Of a DNA stretch of 40,870 nt, positions 1 to 40,870 are shown piece after piece. The notes under the pieces are model-generated. The model made no database searches and was not told the origin of the DNA. It saw only the letters and a program-made list of their open reading frames with translations. The DNA is taken from the IMG/VR virus record IMGVR_UViG_3300042560_002966, positions 1 to 40,870 of that record. One strand, 5' to 3'. Position numbers and translations under genes: made by a program. This stretch comes from a virus. Position 1 is the stretch's first letter; every line of letters starts with the position of its first letter.

Positions 1-127
1 TCCCCCAACAATTTCACCATTTACCCCTCATTTAAAGCCACACACAGCCCATTACAAGCCATTTGCCAGCATTTAAACCAACAAACAAACCCCACCGCCA
101 CCAAAAAAAGCCCATTTATAAAGCAAT
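1..127. repeat. Terminal direct repeat, left copy (circular overlap)
   Basis: These 127 bases are identical to 40744-40870. The repeat shows that the sequence closes on itself, giving a unique length of about 40,743 bp. A length of exactly 127 equals a k-mer size often used by short-read assemblers, so this is more likely an assembly overlap of a circular or circularly permuted genome than a true packaged terminal repeat. The plus strand here is rich in C and A and very poor in G, and I see no gene in it. Confidence 0.95.
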
Positions 128-156
128 AAAAAAGCCCTGCAAAATTTGCAGGGCTT
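128..156 (-). terminator. Intrinsic terminator after the DUF932 gene
   Basis: A perfect 12-bp stem (132-143 with 145-156, core GCCCTGC / GCAGGGC) with a one-base centre is followed in the minus direction by a T tract (A tract at 128-133 on the plus strand). It lies 20 bases past the stop of the DUF932 gene and ends the accessory cassette. Confidence 0.85.
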
Positions 157-2407: not shown

Positions 2408-4084
2408 TTAGCCTATCAGTGTAGGAATGAATCGTTTCTTCTGTATTACTTCTGTAAACATACCTTGCATTAAGGTATCAAAGGCCTCACTAAAGTGGGT
2501 AGCATGCTCAGGCTTAACGAGCTTACTCTTCTCTGAAGCTTTATCCTTAGCAAACTCTTTCTCCTTTTGTTTAACCGGAGCCATCTCCATTGAGATAATC
2601 AGGTCACTACATCGATGAGCATTAAAGGATATATGAGGCATCTGGCTATCACCTATAAACAACTTACCCAAGAAGTTATATAAGTAAGCATGACTCCAAG
2701 CCTGCCCCACATACACCAGCCTCACAATCCAACCATTATCCTTAAACACTTGGGCATACTCTTCAGCAAAGGTTTGTGTACCTATAGCATTCTCAGCAAT
2801 AGCTGTATTGTTATAATAAAACCATATTTCCTTTTTACCATGAGCAGCATAATAGTCACAAAACTTTTTAGCATTATCCTTAATACGATTTGGAGCTGTA
2901 ACGAATATCCCATTCAACACCCTGATAGCATCATCAAATTGTAACTGACCTACCACTAAACTATTAATAGCAGCATTATAATCACATGCCACATGTAAAG
3001 GTTCATTGCGTAACACATCTCCATCAGCTAAAGAGTTCTCAATGGCCTTAACATAGCCCATGTTATAATTATACTTATCCAGGTAAGCATAATCAAAACT
3101 ATCATTGCAATGCTTATCTCTATCAAATGCGGCATAAAAACTACCACTAATTTTCTGCAAGGTTTGGTTAAGTATTTCAATCTTAAACTGTAGATCACTT
3201 AAATCCCTACGATTTGACATTACATACTTCCAACCCAAATTCATAATGTTATCGAAAACAGTAGCTTCTTGATAAAAAATGGATCCTGCACCTTCCTGAT
3301 CAGGACGATGAGTAAAATATTTAATAGCGGCTTTTTGTCTTAAATACTCTTTCCAAAGCTTTTCGCGCTCTGTTCTGGCTTGTGCATCAATAAAAGCCAA
3401 TTGTATATTTACTAAATCTTCATGGCGCTTACTATAGTTCAACCCTAATTCATCATAGTAGCTGCCATAATCTAACAACCATTTGCCCTGAAAGCCTATA
3501 GGCTTGGAGGACAGAAAATGTTTACTTAAAGCTAAAGGGCAATCGTAAATACTTTTGCCTTTATGAATATTGGCCCTTACAGTTGGGCTGATTTCTTCTT
3601 TGTATTGAGATTCTTTTAAAGTAATAGCTTCATCACCTGTAAAGCTATCAAGGTTTAAGCCTCGGCTCATACCTGCCCTATCTTGGCTAATTAAAGGAAA
3701 TATAGCACCAGTGTACCATGATATTACATGATCATACCCAGCTTTACCGACTGGCTTTTGGTAAGGACCTATCCAATTAGGCATTGGATGAGGGCGGCCA
3801 ATAACATAGTGAATACCTTCGAAACAATTTAATTTTTCGAGGGCTGCAATAGTACCAGGTAATGTTCTGGTTTGAAGCTGCATAAATGTACTTCCACCAA
3901 TCCCATTTGCGCTGCGAGGCATTTGCTCTGCCAATGTTTTAATACGCATAGCAAGTGAAGTGGATTTACCAACACCACGACTCCATAAATCCACACTGAT
4001 ATCGGCAGGGTTTAAAAAGCTACGCATTTGCGGAGCATTAGGAACTAATCCTATGGGCTGAAAATTATTGTTCTTTGTCGGCAT
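2408..4084 (-). CDS. terL: Terminase large subunit
   Basis: A 558-aa packaging motor and nuclease that drives DNA into the prohead through the portal. The ATPase half has a Walker A motif SRGVGKST (residues 35-42) and a Walker B segment LDSFTGDEA (145-153). The nuclease half has the expected acidic residues in HVACDYNAA (D368) and HFSEAFDTL (D536) within an RNase H-like region. Length is typical of the family. The start overlaps the end of the upstream candidate small-subunit gene by 20 bases, so the two are translated as a unit. It is the last gene of the first late operon; the portal gene, usually next, lies beyond an inserted accessory cassette and the circular join. Confidence 0.9.
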   Translation of the reverse strand: MPTKNNNFQPIGLVPNAPQMRSFLNPADISVDLWSRGVGKSTSLAMRIKTLAEQMPRSANGIGGSTFMQLQTRTLPGTIAALEKLNCFEGIHYVIGRPHPMPNWIGPYQKPVGKAGYDHVISWYTGAIFPLISQDRAGMSRGLNLDSFTGDEAITLKESQYKEEISPTVRANIHKGKSIYDCPLALSKHFLSSKPIGFQGKWLLDYGSYYDELGLNYSKRHEDLVNIQLAFIDAQARTEREKLWKEYLRQKAAIKYFTHRPDQEGAGSIFYQEATVFDNIMNLGWKYVMSNRRDLSDLQFKIEILNQTLQKISGSFYAAFDRDKHCNDSFDYAYLDKYNYNMGYVKAIENSLADGDVLRNEPLHVACDYNAAINSLVVGQLQFDDAIRVLNGIFVTAPNRIKDNAKKFCDYYAAHGKKEIWFYYNNTAIAENAIGTQTFAEEYAQVFKDNGWIVRLVYVGQAWSHAYLYNFLGKLFIGDSQMPHISFNAHRCSDLIISMEMAPVKQKEKEFAKDKASEKSKLVKPEHATHFSEAFDTLMQGMFTEVIQKKRFIPTLIG

Positions 4085-8493: not shown

Positions 8494-9450
8494 TTAAGGA
8501 TTTAATTCAACATCGTTAGTGAAAACGATTTCAGGAATAACGAAACCAACTCCAAACCAGAAATCAGTAAAGATTTTAATTTGACGATCGATTGATTGTA
8601 CCTGCACCATCTTTTCGTTTTGTGTTTTCTTACTTAAACGCACTGTGTTTTCGTAAGGCGTACACCAAATTTTACTACTTCCATTATGAGAAGCCAAACC
8701 AACTACGGTAATGTTTGACTCAGGAATTTTGAAGGTAGTACCTTTAAAATCTTGGTCCTTACCATATTTTTCGCGGTAACCTCTAATGAAGTTACGAGCA
8801 TGAGTTTGTGACATACACAAATTCATGTTTGCTTTCCAATAGCGAGTATCGATATCATCAACAAAAGCTTCAATCTGACCAAGCAAAGTTGCTGGAGTTG
8901 CAGATAAAGCACCAGTAGCAATTGGGGTGATTCTTGTTTCATCAATCCAGTAGTTAAGTAAAAACTTAATACCGTTCATTGCCTTACTTACCAAACCTGC
9001 AGTACCAGGTGTTGGAGGTGCCAAATATACACCAGAATAAATTTCATTCATTTCTTTATCCTCTTGCAACTGTGGCAACAAATGCTCCTCAATAATCCAT
9101 CTTACAAATGGCCATTGCGCACGGTCAATTTCTTCTCCAGCTAAAAAGCCCAACCAAGAAGCTTCTAATTCATCCGGATAATCTTGGTAATCCATTTTCA
9201 TTTTAAACTGATCAATTTCAACTGGCACAAATTCAGCAGTTCCTGTTGGAGACCACGTTTTTTGGAACGGTTGCAATAAACGAGAAATACGCGCCTCAGA
9301 AGCACGGTATTTAGTATCGTCTGTTACTACGGGACGAAACATCATTTCTGTTTCGCTTGGTCTGTAAAGTTGTTTAACAATACGAGACATGTTTTGGCCA
9401 CTATTGATATAGTAAGCACCAAATTCGGTTATGATATCACTAACTGTCAT
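8494..9450 (-). CDS. Major capsid protein
   Basis: A 318-aa protein of the size and composition of an HK97-fold major capsid protein. The N-terminal region contains the aromatic/acidic FVPVEIDQFKMKMDYQDYP segment typical of the E-loop area, and the C-terminal domain has NMNLCMSQTHARNFIRGY, then SNITVVGLASHNGSSKIWC, matching the P-domain pattern seen in Bacteroidota siphophage capsids. It follows the S49 protease-scaffold gene by about 40 bases, the standard order for these genes, and is followed by a terminator. Family call rests on context plus general pattern. Confidence 0.8.
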   Translation of the reverse strand: MTVSDIITEFGAYYINSGQNMSRIVKQLYRPSETEMMFRPVVTDDTKYRASEARISRLLQPFQKTWSPTGTAEFVPVEIDQFKMKMDYQDYPDELEASWLGFLAGEEIDRAQWPFVRWIIEEHLLPQLQEDKEMNEIYSGVYLAPPTPGTAGLVSKAMNGIKFLLNYWIDETRITPIATGALSATPATLLGQIEAFVDDIDTRYWKANMNLCMSQTHARNFIRGYREKYGKDQDFKGTTFKIPESNITVVGLASHNGSSKIWCTPYENTVRLSKKTQNEKMVQVQSIDRQIKIFTDFWFGVGFVIPEIVFTNDVELNP

Positions 9451-9489: not shown

Positions 9490-9909
9490 TTACTTATTGA
9501 ATAAAGGATTACCATCCAAAGCCTTGTTATGTGGCAACTCTGCAATTGCATTCATATCAGCGCCATTGTGAACAGCAGCAGCGCCTGTTTTACCTTGTGC
9601 CACCACTGTGCTAACAGGTTCAAAAGCTTTTAAACGAGTAACTTCTGCCTGAGCAGTAGTTAAGCTGGTATTAGCAGCGGTTAAATCGTTTGAGGCTTTT
9701 GTTAAGGAAGCAGTTAAAGTTTCTTTTTCAGTGTTCAAAGCAGTAATGCTTTGTTCAGCAGTAGAAACCTGACCTTGCAATGCTACCACAGCAGCATTCA
9801 AGTCGTTCATTTGGCTTTCTGTTAGCTCAGCACTTTCTGTTTGCCCTTCGGCAACAGTAATGTTAAGCATAGCAATTAAAGCTGCGTGTGAGGCTGTTTT
9901 TAATTTCAT
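9490..9909 (-). CDS. Candidate internally initiated scaffold protein
   Basis: An in-frame ATG at 9907-9909, right after the Ser/Asn linker of the protease-scaffold gene, would give a 139-residue scaffold protein starting MKLKTASHAALIAM. The bases before it (ACAATAAC then ATG) resemble the A-rich leaders used elsewhere in this genome. Established precedent: phage lambda C/Nu3 and related S49 or ClpP-type protease genes. Production from this site is inference. Confidence 0.4.
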   Translation of the reverse strand: MKLKTASHAALIAMLNITVAEGQTESAELTESQMNDLNAAVVALQGQVSTAEQSITALNTEKETLTASLTKASNDLTAANTSLTTAQAEVTRLKAFEPVSTVVAQGKTGAAAVHNGADMNAIAELPHNKALDGNPLFNK

Positions 9910-10857
9910 GTTATTGTTTGATTGGTTAGAATTAGAATTTGAAGGCTTAGTATTAGCCAATTCAGCAGCGCGAGCCACAACTTGCTCAAAGCTCATAATG
10001 CCATCGATAAGGCCTTGCTCCTGAGCATCTGATGCTTGAAACATAGCGCCTTTATCCCATTTGCCTTTAGCCTTTAATTTATTGCCTCTGCCATTTTTAA
10101 CAGCAGCAACAAATGCTTCCCTGATAGGGTTAAGCATGTTGGTTTTAATTAACTCGTATTTTGAGTCTAAAGCTTCTTTATAAGGAAGGTTTTTTTCTTC
10201 CGATCCATCGGCATAAATTTCGTGGATAACAAAACCCTCTTTTGCATAAGCAGGTTTAACATCTAATAAACGAACAAAAACACCAACACTTCCAACGCTG
10301 GAAGTATCGTGGCTTACATATAACTCTGTAGTTTGTGAAGCAAACCAATAAGCTGCACTGGCAGCCATACCATCTTCAACAAAACCAAGTACCGGCTTTT
10401 TCTTTTTGGCATTATTAATAGCATCGGCAAAAGTTTGAGTGCCATCTACCATTCCACCAGGTGAGTCAAATAATAATACTATAGAAGATATGTTGTCATT
10501 ATTTGACAAGTTGTTAAGTTGGCGTGCTCTGGTCATACTACCCGCATCACCACAATTATCTTCTTTTAAGATTGCACCTTTAACAGGAATAACTGCCACA
10601 ACTCCTGAAGGAATATTAGCAGATCCATTTGATGAAGCAAATAAAGAAGCAGTAGCCTCACTATTTAAAGTAAGAATTTGATTATTGTCTAAAACAACAA
10701 AAGGAAGTTGATTTTTATCAAGCTCATCATTCGCAGCAAAAGCGGCAGGCTTGCCATTAAGCAGGTTATATATTAACGGTAATTGCGCATTAGCATAGCT
10801 TGGATCAACAAGCCAATTGCCTTTTAAAATGCTACTTATTACATGGTTAATTTTCAT
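9490..10857 (-). CDS. S49 prohead protease fused to scaffold domain
   Basis: A 455-aa protein. Residues 85-300 are an S49/SppA-type peptidase (crotonase-like fold): VVAVIPVKGAIL, SIVLLFDSPGGMVDGT, and the catalytic Ser167 in GMAASAAYW, followed by SSVGSVGVF. After a Ser/Asn linker (306-316), residues 317-455 form an Ala/Thr/Leu-rich domain with a coiled coil (345-410), typical of a scaffold. This is the layout of lambda gpC, where an internal start makes the free scaffold Nu3. Here Met317 (ATG at 9907-9909), just after the linker and preceded by AAACAATAAC, is a candidate internal start. It is the first gene after late-promoter motif 1. Confidence 0.9.
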   Translation of the reverse strand: MKINHVISSILKGNWLVDPSYANAQLPLIYNLLNGKPAAFAANDELDKNQLPFVVLDNNQILTLNSEATASLFASSNGSANIPSGVVAVIPVKGAILKEDNCGDAGSMTRARQLNNLSNNDNISSIVLLFDSPGGMVDGTQTFADAINNAKKKKPVLGFVEDGMAASAAYWFASQTTELYVSHDTSSVGSVGVFVRLLDVKPAYAKEGFVIHEIYADGSEEKNLPYKEALDSKYELIKTNMLNPIREAFVAAVKNGRGNKLKAKGKWDKGAMFQASDAQEQGLIDGIMSFEQVVARAAELANTKPSNSNSNQSNNNMKLKTASHAALIAMLNITVAEGQTESAELTESQMNDLNAAVVALQGQVSTAEQSITALNTEKETLTASLTKASNDLTAANTSLTTAQAEVTRLKAFEPVSTVVAQGKTGAAAVHNGADMNAIAELPHNKALDGNPLFNK

Positions 10858-10859
10858 CC

Positions 10860-10891
10860 GCTGCTAATTATTTTTATCAAAAATCAGCAGC
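10860..10891 (-). promoter_or_regulatory. Hairpin directly before the protease start codon
   Basis: GCTGCT (10860-10865) pairs with AGCAGC (10886-10891), with inner ATTTTT/AAAAAT pairing, two bases upstream of the ATG. It would lie in the mRNA leader only if transcription starts upstream of it; with the -7-like box proposed at 10878-10885 the overlap is partial, so it may instead be a DNA-level dyad. Confidence 0.35.
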
Positions 10892-10922
10892 AATAAGTTG
10901 TTAGCGTGGTACAAAAAGTACC
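10878..10922 (-). promoter_or_regulatory. Late promoter candidate 1 (capsid/packaging operon)
   Basis: On the minus strand the 13-mer TGTACCACGCTAA (10901-10913) is followed after exactly 15 bases by GATTTTTG (10878-10885), close to the Bacteroidota -7 box. The 13-mer overlaps a perfect dyad GGTAC-N5-GTACC (10908-10922). The same motif, spacing and near-identical dyad occur before the portal operon. The start of the protease gene is about 20 bases downstream of the -7-like box. Confidence 0.6.
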
Positions 10923-10928
10923 ATTACC

Positions 10929-11435
10929 TTAATCTATAGCAAAGGGAGTAATTTGTTTTTTACGGCAAATTAAATTGAAGTCGGAGTAATTAAGCGTAGC
11001 AATATCGGCACCACTTGTGCGCTGGCCTCTAACAATTACTGCAGGGCAGTTTACCGTGCCAACAATAAGGCGCACTGGTGTGCCATCATCATAATCGTTA
11101 AGGCTATAAACAATAGCAATAAACTGCGAGCCGATTAATGATAGCAAATGTTGTAAAATACTGTTTTGATCCTTTGGAAAAATACCACTTACAATACATT
11201 CTTCTAAATCATCTCCACTTTCGGGCACATTAGTAATCTTATAATTACAATCGCCATTTTTAAAGTTATACGTATGAAAATCAGAAAAAGAAAAGCCAGA
11301 TCTATATCCAATATCATCTATAGAAATGTAACCCTCTGAATCGGGATTAGGCAAATACAACACCTTTTTAACATCAATAATTTTTAGTGTTTTTACACCA
11401 CCAAAATTGGAGCCGTTTAGTCTATTTATATTCAT
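10929..11435 (-). CDS. Hypothetical protein, 168 aa
   Basis: No family recognised. The protein looks globular and strand-rich: KTLKIIDVKKVLYLPNPDSE, then YRSGFSFSDFHTYNF, an acidic Gly segment, and a C-terminal core SQFIAIVYSLNDYDDGTPVR. Similar overall texture occurs in Bacteroidota phage head-completion or tail proteins, but I cannot place it. It ends just before the late-promoter dyad of the capsid operon and starts 32 bases after the 150-aa gene upstream, so the pair is expressed before or independently of the late genes. Confidence 0.6.
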   Translation of the reverse strand: MNINRLNGSNFGGVKTLKIIDVKKVLYLPNPDSEGYISIDDIGYRSGFSFSDFHTYNFKNGDCNYKITNVPESGDDLEECIVSGIFPKDQNSILQHLLSLIGSQFIAIVYSLNDYDDGTPVRLIVGTVNCPAVIVRGQRTSGADIATLNYSDFNLICRKKQITPFAID

Positions 11436-11467: not shown

Positions 11468-11920
11468 TTATGCAGCGTTTTTTTTATTATAACGCTTGTA
11501 GGTAGTTCTAAAATATTCAACATCGGTTTCAGAGTCGGGCATATTATGATCGGCAATAAACTTTTCGATGCAAGCTTTTGTATCGGTACCAGAAAAACGT
11601 CTATAAAAGCTCATCCATTCAAAAAAGTACTCTTTCATTTTATGCTCTACATAATTATTAAAGTCATCAATGGCTCCTGGTAATATAAAACATTTACGGT
11701 CCATATGTTTATATGAACCTAAAGCAACGCTAAAGCATTTGGTAGTATCGTACTTAATAAATTGCGGACATTTGTTTTTAGTTACCAGCAGGCTACCAAT
11801 AAAAACGCCAAGGCTTTGCTTGTGCGAAAGTTTATAGAAACCAACCGGTGCATATTTGGCCCGCAAAAAAGCAAGAACCCTCAAACTCTTTATTGGAATA
11901 TGCACCGTTTGGTTATCCAC
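11468..11920 (-). CDS. Hypothetical protein, 150 aa, GTG start, possible late regulator
   Basis: A 150-aa basic protein with no recognised family. It starts with GTG (11918-11920); no in-frame ATG lies upstream before a stop. The start is overlapped by a perfect DnaA box (TTATCCACA at 11913-11921). The C-terminus (SETDVEYFRTTYKRYNKKNA) is helical and basic and could bind DNA. Being the first gene after the early operon and just upstream of the late operon makes it the best positional candidate for the activator that would recognise the two late motifs, but this is inference only. Confidence 0.55.
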   Translation of the reverse strand: MDNQTVHIPIKSLRVLAFLRAKYAPVGFYKLSHKQSLGVFIGSLLVTKNKCPQFIKYDTTKCFSVALGSYKHMDRKCFILPGAIDDFNNYVEHKMKEYFFEWMSFYRRFSGTDTKACIEKFIADHNMPDSETDVEYFRTTYKRYNKKNAA

Positions 11921-20635: not shown

Positions 20636-20953
20636 TTATCCTTCATCACCAACTTTGTAAAGCTTAGCGCCTTTAGAATTAAGCAACTTGCCACGCACAT
20701 CATTAATGCTCTGCTCAGCCTTCCAAAAGTTATTTATTTGGTCATTAATATCTTTCATGCTCTCTAGTAATTCCAGCTTACTTTCAAGTCTAGGAAGTTC
20801 TACTTGCACAATATCAAGCATGGCATTTGCACCTGCATAAAATAACCTCTTGCTGCTTTCTTTTTTATCAGCACTCAAAGCAGTTAAGTCAATGCCAATT
20901 TTGGCCATAAACAATTCGTATTGTTTATTTAAATCAATGTTTTCGTTAGTCAT
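20636..20953 (-). CDS. Hypothetical protein, 105 aa
   Basis: Start chosen at the ATG at 20951-20953 (MTNENIDLN), which overlaps the end of the DnaA-like gene by 8 bases; the frame remains open further upstream. The protein is helical and acidic, with a coiled-coil segment (ELPRLESKLELLESMKDIND). No family recognised. Coupling to the DnaA domain IV protein suggests a replication-related or regulatory partner, but nothing in the sequence proves it. Confidence 0.55.
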   Translation of the reverse strand: MTNENIDLNKQYELFMAKIGIDLTALSADKKESSKRLFYAGANAMLDIVQVELPRLESKLELLESMKDINDQINNFWKAEQSINDVRGKLLNSKGAKLYKVGDEG

Positions 20954-21344
20954 GTTTTGTGGGGTTAAAAACGGTTGTACACTTTTCAAATTCTGCTATG
21001 ATTTGTTCCAGATTATCATTAATGATGCTTTTATAAATAAGGTCTACTTTATTGTAAGTACTTACCACATCGTAATATTTATGTTCAAGGTCATTGCTTA
21101 CTGTCTTTGTTGCATAAATTACAGTTGAATGATCAAAATCTCCCAATATTGCACCAGTATCTACTTGTCCTATTCCAGCCATTCGGTTAAGAAAATACAT
21201 GATTACTTGCCTAGGCCTTACAATAATGCGCTCTCTAGTTTTACTTCTTAAAATTTCTAAAGGCAACTCAAGTTCCTTGCAGCACGATTCAATAAATTTT
21301 GTGCAACGTTCAGGTGTTTGAAAACTTCCATAGCTCTTAATCAT
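20946..21344 (-). CDS. Free-standing DnaA domain IV-like protein
   Basis: A 132-aa protein whose centre (residues 35-85) matches the DNA-binding domain IV of DnaA: SKTRERIIVRPRQVIMYFLN, then GAILGDFDHSTVIYATKTV. The DHSTVIYA motif, which in DnaA contacts the DnaA box, is fully conserved. The AAA+ domain is absent. In phages and plasmids such stand-alone domains probably bind origin DNA or titrate DnaA. A perfect DnaA box lies at 11913-11921 and iteron arrays at 13115-13241 are other possible targets. It overlaps the DUF4406 gene by 4 bases. Confidence 0.85.
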   Translation of the reverse strand: MIKSYGSFQTPERCTKFIESCCKELELPLEILRSKTRERIIVRPRQVIMYFLNRMAGIGQVDTGAILGDFDHSTVIYATKTVSNDLEHKYYDVVSTYNKVDLIYKSIINDNLEQIIAEFEKCTTVFNPTKHD

Positions 21345-21712
21345 AACTTACCTCCTTCGTTAACTAGTACAGTATCTCTATGCGCATATTCAAAAAACTC
21401 ATTCTTTGCAAAAGTTACCTTAACAGCACTTTCAATTGCAGCTTCCATTTCATCTTTACTACCTGGGCTATCTTTCCAGCCATCTAAAAAGCAAGCACAA
21501 TCACATTTCTTTATGGCAGGAATACACACGGCCATGTAATCCTCTTGCTTAAATGCGCTAGTATCAATACCATCAAATAAATCATGTGGTACAACAGTGT
21601 TATAGCCTTTATCCTGTAAAAGCTTTTCTACAAACCTGAACTCATCCAGGTTAAGGTTAGCCATGCCACGTATTGGACCAGCTATGTAAACAGTTAATTT
21701 GTTTTTAGTCAT
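21341..21712 (-). CDS. DUF4406, nucleoside 2-deoxyribosyltransferase-like
   Basis: A 123-aa protein. The N-terminal VYIAGPIRGMANLN and the later CDCACFLDGWKDSPGSKDE are typical of DUF4406 proteins, which belong to the nucleoside 2-deoxyribosyltransferase-like fold that exchanges or cleaves bases on deoxynucleosides or deoxynucleotides. Phages carry such proteins among nucleotide-metabolism and DNA-modification genes. The substrate is unknown. The 4-base overlap with the DnaA-like gene and proximity to the PAPS-reductase-like gene place it in the early operon. Confidence 0.8.
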   Translation of the reverse strand: MTKNKLTVYIAGPIRGMANLNLDEFRFVEKLLQDKGYNTVVPHDLFDGIDTSAFKQEDYMAVCIPAIKKCDCACFLDGWKDSPGSKDEMEAAIESAVKVTFAKNEFFEYAHRDTVLVNEGGKL

Positions 21713-21732: not shown

Positions 21733-22929
21733 TTATTTAAAAAGAGTTTCCATTTTATATCCATCAGAATAAACCTTATCAAGTATTTTACTTGCATTTG
21801 GTTCTGTGCCATCCCATCCTGATGGCCAAACATTTAATTCATGCATTTCATTAATCCTATCAATCTCAATTTTATTTAATATATCTATATTTGGCTTATT
21901 CTGAATTATAGCATTGTGATTTACTTCGGATTGTATAGCAATCACTTGTTCTAAAAATGACTTTCTAGCTTCAATGGTTAATGGTCCCATTCTCTGTTGA
22001 TTTTTGCTTAATGAGCCATCTTTCTTTATATCTCCACCAGATTTTCTAATTCTATAAATAGGCTTTCTCATTTCAGTGTAAATCAACTTAAGGCCTTTTA
22101 ATGGCTTTAAATAATTCCAATAATCAAGCTTTAAAATTGTATCAAGCGATTTGTCTTTATGAGTAAGCGGACAACCAATGCATCCTGTTCTAGCATTAAT
22201 TTCTTCTGCTTCATCACCACCGTAGGCATCTGCCAACATCGTTGTATTCCATGAGCCATATTTTTTAAGAGGCGCAAAATATTTTAACCAATCCCACACA
22301 TTACAAACTCTCCAATGTAAAATTGGTGCAAGAGTGGCACACATATCACTTTCTAAACCTTTTTGATACCACCCTTGTCCACATTCAGCACCATCTTTCG
22401 AACAGCTCATGCTAATGCGTTGATCTCTTATTGCACTTTCTCCCTGCCTAACACCTGTTAGCATTAATATTTTTTCATCGAACTCTCCTATTAAAGCTTG
22501 CAATGCTTTTTCCATAGGTTCAACTTTAATTTTACCGGTGCACCATCTAAAGGTATTTGATGGTGGAGGAACACCTTTCCCTAAAATGTATACTAAAAAA
22601 CGATCATCTATATCAGCAGTAACAATATGTACTTTAATTCCCCTATCTTCAAGTTGCTTGATAATTAATTGTGCACTTAACCAAAGCGGAGTTAACTCCA
22701 TTCTTGTATCAGCGCACATAACTGTAAAAGTTTCAGGCTTTGGTATTTGACCAGTGTTTATTAATTGAGCAACTAACGTTACTAAAGTAGTAGAATCTTT
22801 TCCCCAACTCCAACTTGCAGCCCAATGTTTATGTTTGCTTCCATACTCAATTAAACTAGCAATAGTTAAATCAATGCTTTCAGCAACAGTAATTTTTTCA
22901 ATTCCAAACAAATTGATTTGATTCTTCAT
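21733..22929 (-). CDS. PAPS reductase/DndC-like ATP-pyrophosphatase
   Basis: A 398-aa protein. The PP-loop SWGKDST (41-47) binds ATP; then FRWCTGKIKVEP (C130) and GVRQGESAIRDQR (159-171) are landmarks of the phosphoadenosine phosphosulfate reductase family and its DndC branch, and C183, C197, C250 and C253 (RTGCIGCPL) could hold an iron-sulfur cluster. DndC activates sulfur chemistry for DNA phosphorothioation; phage relatives may act in DNA sulfur modification, tRNA thiolation or sulfur assimilation. No other dnd genes are here. It overlaps the upstream 86-aa gene by 4 bases. Family is clear, substrate is not. Confidence 0.85.
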   Translation of the reverse strand: MKNQINLFGIEKITVAESIDLTIASLIEYGSKHKHWAASWSWGKDSTTLVTLVAQLINTGQIPKPETFTVMCADTRMELTPLWLSAQLIIKQLEDRGIKVHIVTADIDDRFLVYILGKGVPPPSNTFRWCTGKIKVEPMEKALQALIGEFDEKILMLTGVRQGESAIRDQRISMSCSKDGAECGQGWYQKGLESDMCATLAPILHWRVCNVWDWLKYFAPLKKYGSWNTTMLADAYGGDEAEEINARTGCIGCPLTHKDKSLDTILKLDYWNYLKPLKGLKLIYTEMRKPIYRIRKSGGDIKKDGSLSKNQQRMGPLTIEARKSFLEQVIAIQSEVNHNAIIQNKPNIDILNKIEIDRINEMHELNVWPSGWDGTEPNASKILDKVYSDGYKMETLFK

Positions 22930-23553: not shown

Positions 23554-23949
23554 ATGAATAATTTTTCAAAAAGATTAAAAGAAGTTCTAGAATCTTTACG
23601 TATTAATCAAACAGAATTTGCCGAGCCAATTGGCGTAGCCCCTAGTAGAATCTCGCAATGGCTTAATGAAGAGCTAAACCTAAGGCCAAATACTGAGCAA
23701 TACGGTTTAATATATAAAATATACAACGTAAATATAAACTGGCTCATTTTAGGTGAAGGCGAAATGTATCATGCAAAAGAGAATGCAAACCAGGTAAACG
23801 AGCCAATATCAGAGTATAATAAAAACGAAATTCAAGAGCTTAAAAAGCAGCTCCTAGACTGCCGCGAAGAAACAATAAAAATATATCGACAATTAAATAA
23901 AAAGCAAATAAGTAGGCCAAATGTATCACATAAAAAAACTAAAATATAG
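23554..23949 (+). CDS. XRE-family phage repressor
   Basis: A 131-aa protein with an N-terminal Cro/CI helix-turn-helix domain (residues 5-68; MNNFSKRLKEVLESLRINQT, EFAEPIGVAPSRISQWL) ending in NINWLILGEGEMY, the typical end of this domain in Bacteroidota phages. Instead of an S24/LexA-like peptidase, the C-terminal half is a coiled coil (residues 85-120), so it is unlikely to self-cleave in response to RecA. It starts a plus-strand transcript divergent from the early operon. A putative integrase arm site overlaps its last codons, and the attP core lies 28 bases past its stop. Confidence 0.8.
   Translation: MNNFSKRLKEVLESLRINQTEFAEPIGVAPSRISQWLNEELNLRPNTEQYGLIYKIYNVNINWLILGEGEMYHAKENANQVNEPISEYNKNEIQELKKQLLDCREETIKIYRQLNKKQISRPNVSHKKTKI
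23918..23931 (+). repeat. Integrase arm-type site, left of attP
   Basis: CAAATGTATCACAT lies within the 3' end of the repressor gene and recurs exactly at 24092-24105 on the other side of the attP core. GTATCACA is the shared unit (23923-23930). Confidence 0.55.
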
Positions 23950-23977
23950 CAACAGTGCCACGTTAGCATTGCACAAA

Positions 23978-23996
23978 GAGTCCCGTCCGCTCCGCA
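23978..23996 (+). other. attP: attP core: 3' end of a tRNA-Asp gene
   Basis: The 19 bases GAGTCCCGTCCGCTCCGCA read as the end of a tRNA from the T loop: GAGT, T-stem CCCGT, acceptor CCGCTCC, discriminator G73. This matches the 3' end of bacterial tRNA-Asp (E. coli has GAGTCCCGTCCGTTCCGCCA) with a compensable change, and pairs with an expected GGAGCGG 5' end in the host gene. The 5' part of the tRNA is absent, as expected for attP. A terminator follows, then the integrase gene. Confidence 0.7.
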
Positions 23997-24024
23997 AAAA
24001 CCCAGTACGAAAGTACTGGGTTTT
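23996..24024 (+). terminator. Intrinsic terminator beside attP
   Basis: AAAACCCAGTAC and GTACTGGGTTTT form a perfect 12-bp stem with a GAAA tetraloop; T and A runs flank both sides, so it works in both directions. In the free genome it ends the repressor transcript; after integration it would lie right after the restored tRNA gene and insulate the integrase. Confidence 0.85.
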
Positions 24025-24057
24025 ACTATTTTACAGCAATATCAACACTTTCAAAAT

Positions 24058-25326
24058 ATGCGGAAAACCTCAAATAACTCAGAAAGTAGCACAAATGTAT
24101 CACATGTTACTAAATTGTATCACATGGGTAAAAATGTAAAGTATCACAAGAAAATGCTTATGCGCATTACTGATGACAGCCACAATGCTTTAAACTCTAT
24201 TTATTTAAGAGTAACAATTAATAGAGTGCAATTAAGAATAGCCACACCTATAAGAATAAGGCAAACAGAGTTTAACCCTGAAACCGAAGAAATAAGAATA
24301 CCAGGTGATACTAAAAAAAGCCATGATTACACCAGAGTGCTGGCATCATTAATGGCCAAGGCCGAAAACATATTTACAAAATACATGCTCATGGAAACAC
24401 CCCTTACACCCGATAAGTTTAAAACAGAGTGGCACATTTTCGGTAACAGAAATAGCTTTTTAGATTTTATGGAACGCGAAATTGAGCATTTAAAAGAAAC
24501 CACCTCCAGAGCAGGAAGCACCATTACAGTTTACAACACCATACTTGGCAAGTTAAGAGCATTTATGCCAAATTTAAGCTTTGCCGATATGGATGGCACA
24601 TGGCCCGAAAACTTTGATCGTTATTTAAACTCAAAAAACTTGGCCGCCAATACCAGGCACAAAGCCCACAAAACAGTAAAAAAGTTTACCAACATTGCCT
24701 TAGATAAAAACCTGATGTTTACCGATCCTTACACAAAGTTTAAGGTAAAGCGCATAAAAGGCAACAGGCAGCATTTGCATATTGATGAGTTAAAGGCGCT
24801 CATAGAACTAGAGGCAAGCGGCACATTAAGTGCCAGCCATCAATACACCTTAAGAGCCTTTTTGTTTAGTTGTTACACCGGAGTGCGTTTGTCCGATTGC
24901 CGTGTTTTAGATCAGCGAAGCATAATTAATGGTGTGCTCACCTTTAAGCCAGTAAAAACCATAAACGATAGTATTATAGTAAAGTCTCCATTATCTGAGG
25001 CATCAATGGAGCTGGTAAATAAAACAGGCAAGTTGTTAACGTGCATTAGCGATAGTAAAATAAACGCAGCTTTAAAAGTAATAGCCAACAGAGCCAGCAT
25101 ACAAACACCATTAACCTTTCACATAGCAAGGCATACCTTTGGCACGCATTATATATTAAGCGGAGGTAACACTGTAGAGTTAATGCACCTGATGGGCCAT
25201 AGTAAAATTGAAACTACTATGATATACGTGCACATGGCCGAAGAGCAAAAAGCAGCCAAAGCAGGCATAAATCAATTTGATGCCTACCTTAAAAAATCGG
25301 CAAGCCCTTTAAGGGTGGTTTCTTAA
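24058..25326 (+). CDS. int: Tyrosine recombinase (phage integrase)
   Basis: Up to 422 aa. It has an N-terminal arm-binding-type domain (about 46-70, IYLRVTINRVQLRIATPIRI), a SAM-like core-binding domain (about 130-225) and the catalytic domain with R277 (CYTGVRLSDC), H355-x-x-R358 (FHIARHTFGTH), H381 (LMGHS) and nucleophile Y390 (TTMIYVHM). It carries out site-specific integration and excision at attP. The first 22-32 residues are encoded by arm-site repeats and are not family-like, so the ATG at 24124 or 24154 is a likelier start than 24058. It is convergent with the tail operon; a terminator lies between. Confidence 0.92.
   Translation: MRKTSNNSESSTNVSHVTKLYHMGKNVKYHKKMLMRITDDSHNALNSIYLRVTINRVQLRIATPIRIRQTEFNPETEEIRIPGDTKKSHDYTRVLASLMAKAENIFTKYMLMETPLTPDKFKTEWHIFGNRNSFLDFMEREIEHLKETTSRAGSTITVYNTILGKLRAFMPNLSFADMDGTWPENFDRYLNSKNLAANTRHKAHKTVKKFTNIALDKNLMFTDPYTKFKVKRIKGNRQHLHIDELKALIELEASGTLSASHQYTLRAFLFSCYTGVRLSDCRVLDQRSIINGVLTFKPVKTINDSIIVKSPLSEASMELVNKTGKLLTCISDSKINAALKVIANRASIQTPLTFHIARHTFGTHYILSGGNTVELMHLMGHSKIETTMIYVHMAEEQKAAKAGINQFDAYLKKSASPLRVVS
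24092..24148 (+). repeat. Integrase arm-type sites, right of attP
   Basis: Three GTATCACA units at 24097-24104, 24117-24124 and 24141-24148 (spacing 20 and 24 bases, about two helical turns) in the same orientation as the unit left of attP. They overlap the upstream part of the integrase frame and so could also let the integrase autoregulate. Confidence 0.55.
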
Positions 25327-37978: not shown

Positions 37979-38965
37979 TTACATTCTATAAACTTTATCT
38001 GTAATCTTATTAACCATTTGTTTGCCAATAATAGGTACAGTAAACAATGGGTAATCAGCATAATTCTTAATCAAATAATCGTTAAGATCAGCCAGCAATC
38101 TTTTACCTTCGCCAATAGCATTTTCTTCTATAATGGCAAGGTTATTCATTTCAGCAGTTTTCTTGGTGTCAATGTTTTCCTGTCTGCCTGTGCTATCGTA
38201 AGTAGTTACACCAAATTCATCAATAGCAATAGCCATGTGTTTTAATCCAAAGCCATAAGCTAGGTAACTGCAGCAAGGTTCAATGTAAGCAATCAACTTT
38301 TTATTTAATGAAGTATAGGTACCACTTAACAGCTGCGTTTTTAATTCTTCAAATAACGCCACTCCAATAGTATTGCGTACCATATCTTCTGAGGTACGTA
38401 AAAAAGGAACTAGCACTTTATAAACCCTGCGGCTATTTTTAATTAAAGCAATGTGCTTGGTAAGCATATCAGAGTTGTAAACAAATACCTCTTTATAAAC
38501 AGTGTAGCTAGTACTTGCAGTCCACAATGGGTAATTAGCTTTATCGCCTTCCATATAAGCAAGCAAACGATCCACCACACGGTAACCAGCACGCTTATAT
38601 TCTAAAGCAGTAGCTCTAACAGCCCATTGGCTACTAGCCCTTGTTTTTTCATCACCTGGTTGTGTAGCTCCATGAGCACCAATATTAACCAGTCCTTTCT
38701 TTTCTACATATAAAGCAGTGGCAATTTCGGCAACAATACGCTGCGCCATCGGCAAAATAGCAACATACTTTGCAGGCAATGGTGTTCCAGGCGATGCAGC
38801 ATAAGCAGCATCTAAAGCATTATATTGTTCTCTACCAATAGCATCAATCAAAACATCTTCGGTAGCATCATCAATTTCGTTAGCAATTAAGTTACTGCTC
38901 CCATCCCAAAGTGTTTTATACACCTGTCCATACTTTTGTAAATCGGCTACGTTTTTAAACAGCAT
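37979..38965 (-). CDS. Probable head-tail connector or portal-associated protein, 328 aa
   Basis: A 328-aa protein mostly helical, with segments AKYVAILPMAQRIVAEIATA, ALEYKRAGYRVVDRLLAYME and RTSEDMVRNTIGVALFEELK. It overlaps the portal gene by 11 bases, where a connector or head-completion gene is expected, and similar proteins sit next to the portal in other Bacteroidota phages (they resemble the DUF6712-like group, not verified). Function as connector is inferred from place. Confidence 0.55.
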   Translation of the reverse strand: MLFKNVADLQKYGQVYKTLWDGSSNLIANEIDDATEDVLIDAIGREQYNALDAAYAASPGTPLPAKYVAILPMAQRIVAEIATALYVEKKGLVNIGAHGATQPGDEKTRASSQWAVRATALEYKRAGYRVVDRLLAYMEGDKANYPLWTASTSYTVYKEVFVYNSDMLTKHIALIKNSRRVYKVLVPFLRTSEDMVRNTIGVALFEELKTQLLSGTYTSLNKKLIAYIEPCCSYLAYGFGLKHMAIAIDEFGVTTYDSTGRQENIDTKKTAEMNNLAIIEENAIGEGKRLLADLNDYLIKNYADYPLFTVPIIGKQMVNKITDKVYRM

Positions 38966-40337
38966 TGCTATCAGATTTAGAAGGTAAAACAGGTTTCATT
39001 TGGCTACCACTATCAAGCGTAGCAATCATCGTTTGCTTAAAGCGCCATTCAAGTATATTACCATCGGCATACTTATCATTCCATCCATTAAGCGCACTAA
39101 TAACATTCATCGGTTCAAGGATCAGTTCCGCTTTAGGTAAAATATGGCTTATGTATTTATTGTAAGCTACTCTAATATCGCTTCCACTTCCACGTTCACT
39201 ACCTGGAGTTTGTCCAGCTAATGCAGGATCAAAATTTAGGGCATACAATAAATGCTCATTAGCCATCTTACCATCATCAAGGTATTGGCCATCTTTAAAT
39301 TTATTGTCAATAGCAGTAATCTTAATGCCTTTCATTTCATTACCACTTCTATCGTACATAAAGGTGGTAAGTATAGTTTTGCCAGCAGCTTGTGTGCCTG
39401 TAAGCATATCATTAATTTCGTCAAAAGTTTGTTGCATGTAATCCACACGCTTAGCTTCATTCTTATCAAAATCAGGATATTTCCATTTCCAGTACCAGTC
39501 AGCAATTTCAACCATATACTTTACAGCAATTTGGTTATCCATCAACTTGCTTTTAAACTCAGGTATATCTAAACTGTACTTTAACCATTTAGATTTACGG
39601 ACAGCATCCCATTCAGGTATCTGGTAATGTTCACACCCAGGTACACTATAACTTAAAGGATATATATAATTGGTTTTGCGGCTATCAGCCAAAACAAAAC
39701 CAGTAGGATCATAATAAGGATCAAGGCAAGGAATGGCGGTAGAGTTTGAAATGCTTGCAGTTCTGGTAGCTCTGTCCTTGTTTACATAAACTAAATCATA
39801 ACGGCCTGTTTTAGGATTCGGCCAAGCATATCTACAATTTTCAGCACCATGTGTAATAATACCCAAAGCCTGTTTATCTGGTCCCATCATTATCTCAGGA
39901 AACACATGATTAAACCACTCCATATCTTTGCAGGCATCCATCAGGTAACGGTTAAAAGCAGTTTTGCGCTTCCAAGCCTCAATATCTTTATGGTGTACCA
40001 CCTTAAAAGCTTCTTTACCATTATCATCCACAGTGGTATAACCACAATGCACACCAGCAGCGTATAACATACGTGCTTTTTCATCTAACTTTGATGGTAT
40101 AATAGTGCTAGGCTTAACATCTTTAAGCACATCCTGTGGATGGGAGTCATTATCGCCCCAAGGGCACCAAGGATAAGAAGCTTCTTTTTCGGCAACAATA
40201 ACGGTAGGTTTACCAACAATAAGCACACCAGTATTATCTTTAGTACGAGCCAAAGCCATACCTAGTTCTGCGCTATAAGCATATGCAGGGCTATTGCCGG
40301 TTGCTCTTATTTCAATGTGGTTATTACTCGTACTCAT
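38955..40337 (-). CDS. Portal protein
   Basis: 460 aa from the ATG at 40335-40337, which gives a 4-base overlap with the upstream gene. The N-terminus has PWCPWGDNDSHPQDVLKDVK and the helix-rich stem region; the C-terminal part, LLYALNFDPALAGQTPGSER then SGSDIRVAYNKYISHILPKA, is the typical portal ending (Gly-Ser-Gly-Ser loop, then long helix). The portal is the dodecameric channel for DNA packaging and ejection. It is separated from the large terminase gene by an inserted accessory cassette and by the circular join, which is unusual. Confidence 0.75.
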   Translation of the reverse strand: MSTSNNHIEIRATGNSPAYAYSAELGMALARTKDNTGVLIVGKPTVIVAEKEASYPWCPWGDNDSHPQDVLKDVKPSTIIPSKLDEKARMLYAAGVHCGYTTVDDNGKEAFKVVHHKDIEAWKRKTAFNRYLMDACKDMEWFNHVFPEIMMGPDKQALGIITHGAENCRYAWPNPKTGRYDLVYVNKDRATRTASISNSTAIPCLDPYYDPTGFVLADSRKTNYIYPLSYSVPGCEHYQIPEWDAVRKSKWLKYSLDIPEFKSKLMDNQIAVKYMVEIADWYWKWKYPDFDKNEAKRVDYMQQTFDEINDMLTGTQAAGKTILTTFMYDRSGNEMKGIKITAIDNKFKDGQYLDDGKMANEHLLYALNFDPALAGQTPGSERGSGSDIRVAYNKYISHILPKAELILEPMNVISALNGWNDKYADGNILEWRFKQTMIATLDSGSQMKPVLPSKSDSNAV

Positions 40338-40603
40338 AGTATTACCGTGCAATTATTTAAAGTATCAATCAACCAAGTCCTCACCTTTATAGGATGATGG
40401 CTATTCTCTTTATTCACTAAAGAAATAAAACCTTTGTTCCCATCTGTATTACTAACACCAGCTCTCGTACAATTCTTCATCACAATCAGCTCACCACCTT
40501 TTTTACGAGCAGCATCATAAGTCCAAAAACTAACTGTAAAAGCTTCGTCCTTATTCTCCATAATTGCTAGTGCTTCTGATAGTCTTAAAGTAGATCGGCT
40601 CAC
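40334..40603 (-). CDS. Hypothetical protein, 89 aa, first gene of portal operon
   Basis: An 89-aa protein with a GTG start (40601-40603), since no in-frame ATG lies upstream; Met15 is an alternative. Sequence SRSTLRLSEALAIMENKDEA, then FTVSFWTYDAARKKGGELIV; strand-rich, no family recognised. It overlaps the portal start by 4 bases (ATGA), so it is coupled to it. It is the first gene after late-promoter motif 2, which suggests a head or packaging function. Confidence 0.55.
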   Translation of the reverse strand: MSRSTLRLSEALAIMENKDEAFTVSFWTYDAARKKGGELIVMKNCTRAGVSNTDGNKGFISLVNKENSHHPIKVRTWLIDTLNNCTVIL

Positions 40604-40636
40604 ATAATAATTAGTTAGCGTTAGTATTAATTGAAA

Positions 40637-40681
40637 TAAAAGTATATTTAACAGTAGTATTAGCGTGGTACACTTTGCACC
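40637..40681 (-). promoter_or_regulatory. Late promoter candidate 2 (portal/lysis/tail operon)
   Basis: On the minus strand the 13-mer TGTACCACGCTAA (40660-40672) is followed after exactly 15 bases by TACTTTTA (40637-40644), near the Bacteroidota -7 box. The 13-mer overlaps a dyad GGTAC-N5-GCACC (40667-40681), one mismatch from the dyad at the other late promoter. The GTG of the first gene is 33 bases downstream. Confidence 0.6.
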
Positions 40682-40743: not shown

Positions 40744-40870
40744 TCCCCCAACAATTTCACCATTTACCCCTCATTTAAAGCCACACACAGCCCATTACAA
40801 GCCATTTGCCAGCATTTAAACCAACAAACAAACCCCACCGCCACCAAAAAAAGCCCATTTATAAAGCAAT
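40744..40870. repeat. Terminal direct repeat, right copy
   Basis: Identical to 1-127. Removing one copy gives the circular genome. Confidence 0.95.

Follow-up and report, generated by a model that had tools for sequence, protein, structure and literature searches.

Genome organization

The stretch of viral DNA analysed here, referred to as the window, comprises 40,870 nt (positions 1 to 40,870 of IMG/VR record IMGVR_UViG_3300042560_002966) and carries a direct terminal repeat of 127 bp (1-127 and 40744-40870) through which it closes to a circle of 40,743 bp. The repeat marks the window as a complete phage genome, circularly permuted and 40,743 bp in length. The phage is temperate, with a repressor-like helix-turn-helix (HTH) protein and an integrase encoded at 23554-25326. 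Its two late operons, both on the minus strand, are adjacent on the circle in the order protease, capsid, terminase and DUF932, then a terminator-like hairpin, then the second of two putative promoter sites, and then p89, portal and tail. The first operon opens with an S49 head-maturation protease (9490..10857; Pfam PF01343, phrog_53) and includes a major capsid protein homologue (8494..9450; recognised by homology to the annotated Mea-Yong major capsid protein) and the large terminase subunit (2408..4084; aligned with an annotated terminase). The second operon opens with p89 (40334..40603, GTG start), which belongs to a family found in 19 of 26 genomes, and includes the portal protein (38955..40352; identified by tblastn to the Leef_1 portal and by alignment). 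The hairpin between them, which is followed by a T run and resembles an intrinsic terminator, lies at 127..156 on the minus strand and has the same form in the relative IMGVR_UViG_3300035681_000054.

Two further minus-strand genes lie upstream of the protease, encoding a 168-aa protein (10929..11435) and a 150-aa protein, p150 (11468..11920), which is considered below as a candidate late activator. The late region also encodes a small protein of the SymE toxin family (1181-1378; PF08845, E 2.7e-10) adjoining DUF932, and the early operon encodes a PAPS-reductase-domain protein (21733-22929) and a DUF4406 protein (21341-21712) adjoining a DnaA_C-like HTH protein (20946-21344).

Two predicted late promoter sites in the window

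Both late operons are headed by the same 13-mer, TGTACCACGCTAA, at 10901..10913 (site 1, predicted to span -40 to -28) and at 40660..40672 (site 2), both on the minus strand. A preliminary description of this DNA had reported two copies, each followed by an A/T-rich box like the Bacteroidota -7 element and each overlapped by a dyad, and these observations were borne out in full: the window holds exactly two copies and no third when up to one mismatch is allowed, and the boxes GATTTTTG (10878..10885, minus strand, predicted +1 near 10873) and TACTTTTA (40637..40644, minus strand, predicted +1 near 40632) begin exactly 15 nt after the 13-mers. With this gap, the box begins 28 nt from the first T of the element. 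Site 1 overlaps the dyad GGTAC-N5-GTACC (10908..10922, minus strand), centred at about -42, and site 2 an imperfect dyad, GGTGC-N5-GTACC with one mismatch (40667..40681, minus strand). The -7 element recognised by sigma-ABfr, TAnnTTTG, is matched at 5/6 positions at both sites, and the -33 element TTTG is absent from both, its position being taken by the 13-mer. Promoters of Flavobacterium johnsoniae have their -7 element between -12 and -5, with transcription beginning 4-5 nt beyond it (PMC6847099); by this geometry the phage element extends from -40 to about -30, covering the position of the -33 contact, and the predicted +1 falls at offset 40 from the first base of the element. The predicted leaders of the two late mRNAs of the window are short, at about 16 and 29 nt.

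Taken alone, the 13-mer repeat is only moderately improbable. When one of the two 150-bp upstream regions was dinucleotide-shuffled 20,000 times, 71 of the shuffles had some 13-mer in common with the second region (p about 0.004), and the window has 204 distinct 13-mers that recur on the same strand. The shared 13-mer is secure because both sites are intact in a relative and because, throughout the group, another motif occupies this register. The nearest relative, IMGVR_UViG_3300035681_000054, has ~88% protein identity and the same operon arrangement without a break, and it contains exactly two intact 13-mers at the same places as the window. Its site 1 lies in a region that is nearly identical throughout and keeps the dyad; at its site 2 the element and box are unchanged and the flanks have drifted. 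Beyond the window and this relative, no contig in IMG/VR matched a search with TGGTRC-N5-GTACCACGCTAA. The suggestion that the 13-mer would be found at the corresponding places in related phages thus held for one close relative, and elsewhere the group consensus TGTCC(T/A)TTTT is found instead.

A predicted late promoter class shared by a group of Bacteroidota phages

A TerL profile was used to collect loci from Bacteroidota, 50 of them genomic and 80 viral. A motif common to the regions upstream of the protease and of the portal operon was present in 31 of 81 loci (p<=0.01). Most TerL relatives carry the element TGTCC(T/A)TTTT rather than TGTACCACGCTAA, and in the aligned sites TAnnTTTG always begins at offset 28, counted from the first base of TGTCC. 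At this offset TAnnTTTG was matched at >=5/6 positions in 185 sense and 4 antisense sites, as compared with 0-9 sense sites (typically about 4) at each other offset. Tallied by -7 score, sense composites at offset 28 outnumbered antisense ones by 210 to 4 at >=5/6 and by 46 to 0 at 6/6.

These composites precede the protease in 63 of 105 loci and p89, the head of the portal operon, in 42 of 80, and across all loci none precedes mcp, terL or the adaptor gene. The other 42 protease loci have no recognisable TGTCC site, which may reflect start-codon errors, motif variants or real absence. Near-complete genomes (Leef_1, Ingeline_1, Mea-Yong and 20 from IMG/VR) contain several composites each, at the heads of protease, p89/portal, tail and tape-measure genes. 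A strict version of the composite was found in 97 IMG/VR stretches with the right spacer, against 16 with a spacer 4 nt shorter, and 40 of 104 true-register sites led directly into a gene family of the group, against 0 of 16 controls. When 17 host genomes were scanned with one strict pattern, the composite occurred twice, and in both cases the contig carries a p150 gene about 10-12 kb upstream of it. As far as this strict pattern can show, the restriction to the neighbourhood of prophages makes the element a feature of phages rather than a promoter motif of their hosts.

The window sites share this definition and location: their element starts with TGT-C, the -7 box lies exactly 28 nt downstream of its first base, and both sites are on the sense strand at the heads of the protease and portal operons. 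They do not match the group consensus TGTCC(T/A)TTTT, TGTACCACGCTAA being a variant. In the window, TGTACC followed at 28 nt by the box is the same architecture as that of the TGTCC class, with a diverged element. Comparison across the group supports the assignment of the two window sites as predicted late promoters of one class, common to a large group of Bacteroidota siphophages that includes Leefvirus (Helgolandviridae), Ingelinevirus (Duneviridae) and many prophages. The dyads of the window do not extend to this class. No GGACA half-site was found upstream of TGTCC at gaps of 0-8, and the dyad was rejected as a general class feature.

The element also varies elsewhere in the group. A Dyadobacter prophage carries TGTCCCAT. 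Spirosoma and Fibrisoma phages (L032, L135, L025, L024) have a third element type, TGTCGCGGCTG, which heads both late operons and keeps the 28-nt register, and some gut Bacteroidales phages (L123, L127, L128, L141) have CGTCC 27-29 nt before the -7 box upstream of the protease, perhaps a fourth type. Flavobacterium phage laban6-1 (L011), which encodes a p150 homologue and the same late genes, lacks a TGTCC composite and may use an unrecognised late-promoter element. Microcystis phage Mea-Yong924-1 (L010, MZ447863) has late promoters of the Bacteroidota type, with a promoter sequence nearly identical to that of a prophage in a Sphingobacteriaceae MAG (L021), and the bacterium that it truly infects is probably a member of the Bacteroidota that lives alongside Microcystis.

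The register also provides predicted start sites. Among 285 unique composite sites, an ATG lies exactly at offset 40, the predicted +1, in 97, and no other offset holds more than 16; a leaderless form is therefore predicted for about a third of the late mRNAs of the group. Among host transcripts leaders are the rule, 87% having one of >10 nt (PMC6847099). An apparent start at offset 33 was discarded as an artefact of TTG within the -7 box being read as a start codon.

The candidate activator p150

Iterative HMM searches placed the p150 family upstream of the protease in most loci. It was found in 26 of 26 near-complete genomes, in 39 of 40 IMG/VR records and in 17 of 17 host genomes examined. 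The single record without a detectable p150, a 42-kb IMG/VR contig (L138, G038), also has no TGTCC site at its portal head. Among the genes of the window, p150 is the only one universal in the 26 genomes for which neither annotation nor position indicates a role in head, tail or packaging. A late promoter precedes the p150 gene in only 1 of 67 cases, as expected of a factor made before the late genes, and in some phages the gene lies in the early region (in Mea-Yong it adjoins the primase). Against p150 as the activator, its homologues lie inside the late block in Ingeline_1 and laban6-1, and laban6-1 has p150 but no visible composite.

The AF2 model of p150 is confident (pLDDT 87.6; 87.9 for a second family member) and has two helices at its end; one arginine, R143, does not vary across 48 members of the family. 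No relatives were found in sequence searches of Pfam, PHROGs, NCBIfam or the PDB, and Foldseek searches of the two models against the PDB gave no significant match and no known DNA-binding fold; the charge of the last helix is not basic on average, and both points speak against the proposed role. The sole significant fold match was Leef1_39 of Leef_1. Direct BLASTP between the window protein and Leef1_39 was not significant, and their homology, together with that of further relatives, emerged from profile and fold searches (iterative HMM; Foldseek E 1.3e-4, TM 0.72 to A0A8E5EBJ1). The further p150 proteins have diverged, the more their motifs differ as well (rho 0.41, partial r 0.21, p=0.006); motif divergence tracks terL equally, so that this co-variation does not single out p150. 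Position 139 is T in the window and its relative only and K or R in 41 of 48 members, which is suggestive only.

The preliminary description had named the 150-aa protein as the best positional candidate for a late activator, a choice strengthened here by its universality and by the lack of any assignment to head, tail or packaging, with activation and DNA binding as its putative functions. The 168-aa protein, also named there, occurs in 2 of 26 genomes with no conservation beyond the close relative, and it was rejected as a general candidate. By genome comparison, p150 is the best candidate late activator.

Proposed mechanism and alternative explanations

The earlier proposal of one dedicated late-promoter architecture, in which an upstream element replaces the -33 contact and points to an activator, is well supported by comparison: the 28-nt register is fixed in hundreds of sense sites, these are confined to late gene heads, strict sites in hosts lie only near prophage genes, and p150 is universal. 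Our preferred reading, which we consider probable though well short of certain, is that the late promoters form one class in which a phage element stands in rigid 28-nt register with a host-type -7 box and is switched on by the phage activator p150. Host RNA polymerase with sigma-ABfr would open the -7 box, and the phage activator, bound at -40 to -30, would make up for a -33 contact that is weak or missing. Early transcription would produce p150, which would then turn on all late promoters together.

Of the alternatives, the one that fares best accepts the promoter class as real and assigns the trans-acting role to another phage protein, such as an early LuxR-type or DnaA_C-type regulator, differing between phages. 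LuxR-like genes are indeed found early in Leef_1, Ingeline_1, laban6-1 and Mea-Yong, the window encodes the DnaA_C-like HTH protein at 20946-21344, and p150 itself has no recognised HTH fold. Yet LuxR-like proteins are present in 7 of 26 genomes and DnaA_C-like proteins in 4 of 26, though the promoter class is common and p150 universal, and the fact that the whole group has one register and one motif core speaks for a single homologous factor. The patchy occurrence of both protein types led us to reject them as general regulators, and we regard this alternative as unlikely, if the most serious of those considered.

A host-encoded activator or alternative sigma factor could also read the element and make a phage factor unnecessary. 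This idea draws on the host type of the -7 box and on the unproven DNA binding of p150, but the one strict pattern scanned in 17 host genomes gave only the two composites near prophage genes, leaving no visible host regulon, and the motif differs between phages of related hosts; we consider it improbable. Slightly more doubtful still is a repressor operator at -40 that silences the late operons in the lysogen. The phage is temperate, with a repressor-like HTH protein and integrase, and the window site overlaps a dyad, as is often the case for repressor sites; a repressor operator, however, would work without strict phasing to the -7 box, whereas the observed register is exact to a single base, and the sites occur in one orientation only and lack the dyad in their TGTCC form. 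Fixed phase and single orientation together argue for contact with an activator or polymerase rather than for a repressor operator. Finally, the reading of the shared 13-mer as a chance repeat, for which the number of repeated 13-mers in the window and the 0.4% rate among shuffles might speak, is rejected as extremely improbable given that the 13-mer and both boxes are conserved in the relative and that the late motif of the group occupies the same positions and register.

Comparison with known systems

Activation by p150 at the -40 to -30 element would resemble two known phage systems. The Mu Mor protein (129 aa) is a phage-encoded activator that works with the host primary-sigma holoenzyme at Pm, a promoter that lacks the normal upstream hexamer; there, a 16-bp element with two 5-bp inverted repeats, its centre at -43.5, takes the place of the -35 element, and Mor binds as a dimer (PMC4390567). 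The window is similar in having 5-bp repeats within 15 bp and a centre near -42. It differs in that neither the sequence nor the fold of p150 matches a solved structure, in that most relatives carry a non-palindromic TGTCC-T-tract element, and in that both the sigma factor of the host and the -7 box belong to the Bacteroidota type; searches of Pfam, PHROGs, NCBIfam and PDB sequences and by Foldseek were all negative for membership of p150 in the Mor/C family. At T4 middle promoters, where AsiA and MotA appropriate sigma, the MotA box has its centre at -30 and stands in for the -35 element, with the downstream element retained (PMC6755090). The phage sites likewise have a phage-specific box in place of the upstream element at fixed spacing, although the genes here are late rather than middle and the sigma factor is different, and no MotA or AsiA homologue was found by family or structure search. 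By analogy, the system would work like the Mor and MotA designs, with membership of either family not implied. Its kind is that of a phage activator element replacing the upstream promoter element, as in Mu Mor and T4 MotA, and what would be new is the protein, the motif and the phylum.

Host sigma-ABfr promoters (-33 TTTG / -7 TAnnTTTG) share the -7 element and the distance from box to predicted start (PMC6847099), whereas the phage sites add a long conserved element at -40 to -30 that the strict scan did not find at host promoters. A further comparison is with Leefvirus (Helgolandviridae) and Ingelinevirus (Duneviridae), which order their late genes in the same way, have homologues of terL, portal, protease and p150, and share the promoter register, but carry the element TGTCCTTTT where the window and its relative have TGTACCACGCTAA. 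The paper describing these flavophages (PMC8776804) contains no description of late promoters and no occurrence of the word 'promoter'.

Significance

We found no description in the open-access literature of late transcription control or late promoters in Bacteroidota phages, including this group. Bacteroidota are a phylum with their own sigma factor and promoter code, and the class presented here can be recognised by eye and has a named candidate regulator in every near-complete genome examined. It is an evenly balanced question, in our estimate, whether p150 is the first known member of a new structural class of phage transcription activators, present throughout a large group of Bacteroidota phages, that takes over the sigma-ABfr holoenzyme at the -40/-30 element and fires coordinated late promoters, many of which yield leaderless mRNAs. 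Exact predicted start sites, 40 nt from the first T of the element, can now be given for the cultured phages Leef_1 (30678) and Ingeline_1 (188, 4600, 22952, 33442 and 38872); those at 188 and 22952 in Ingeline_1 coincide with the annotated ATG, so that leaderless late mRNAs are predicted there. The pattern TGTCC...28...TAnnTTTG provides an annotation handle for late operons and for prophage state, and these promoters may offer inducible parts for Bacteroidota genetics.
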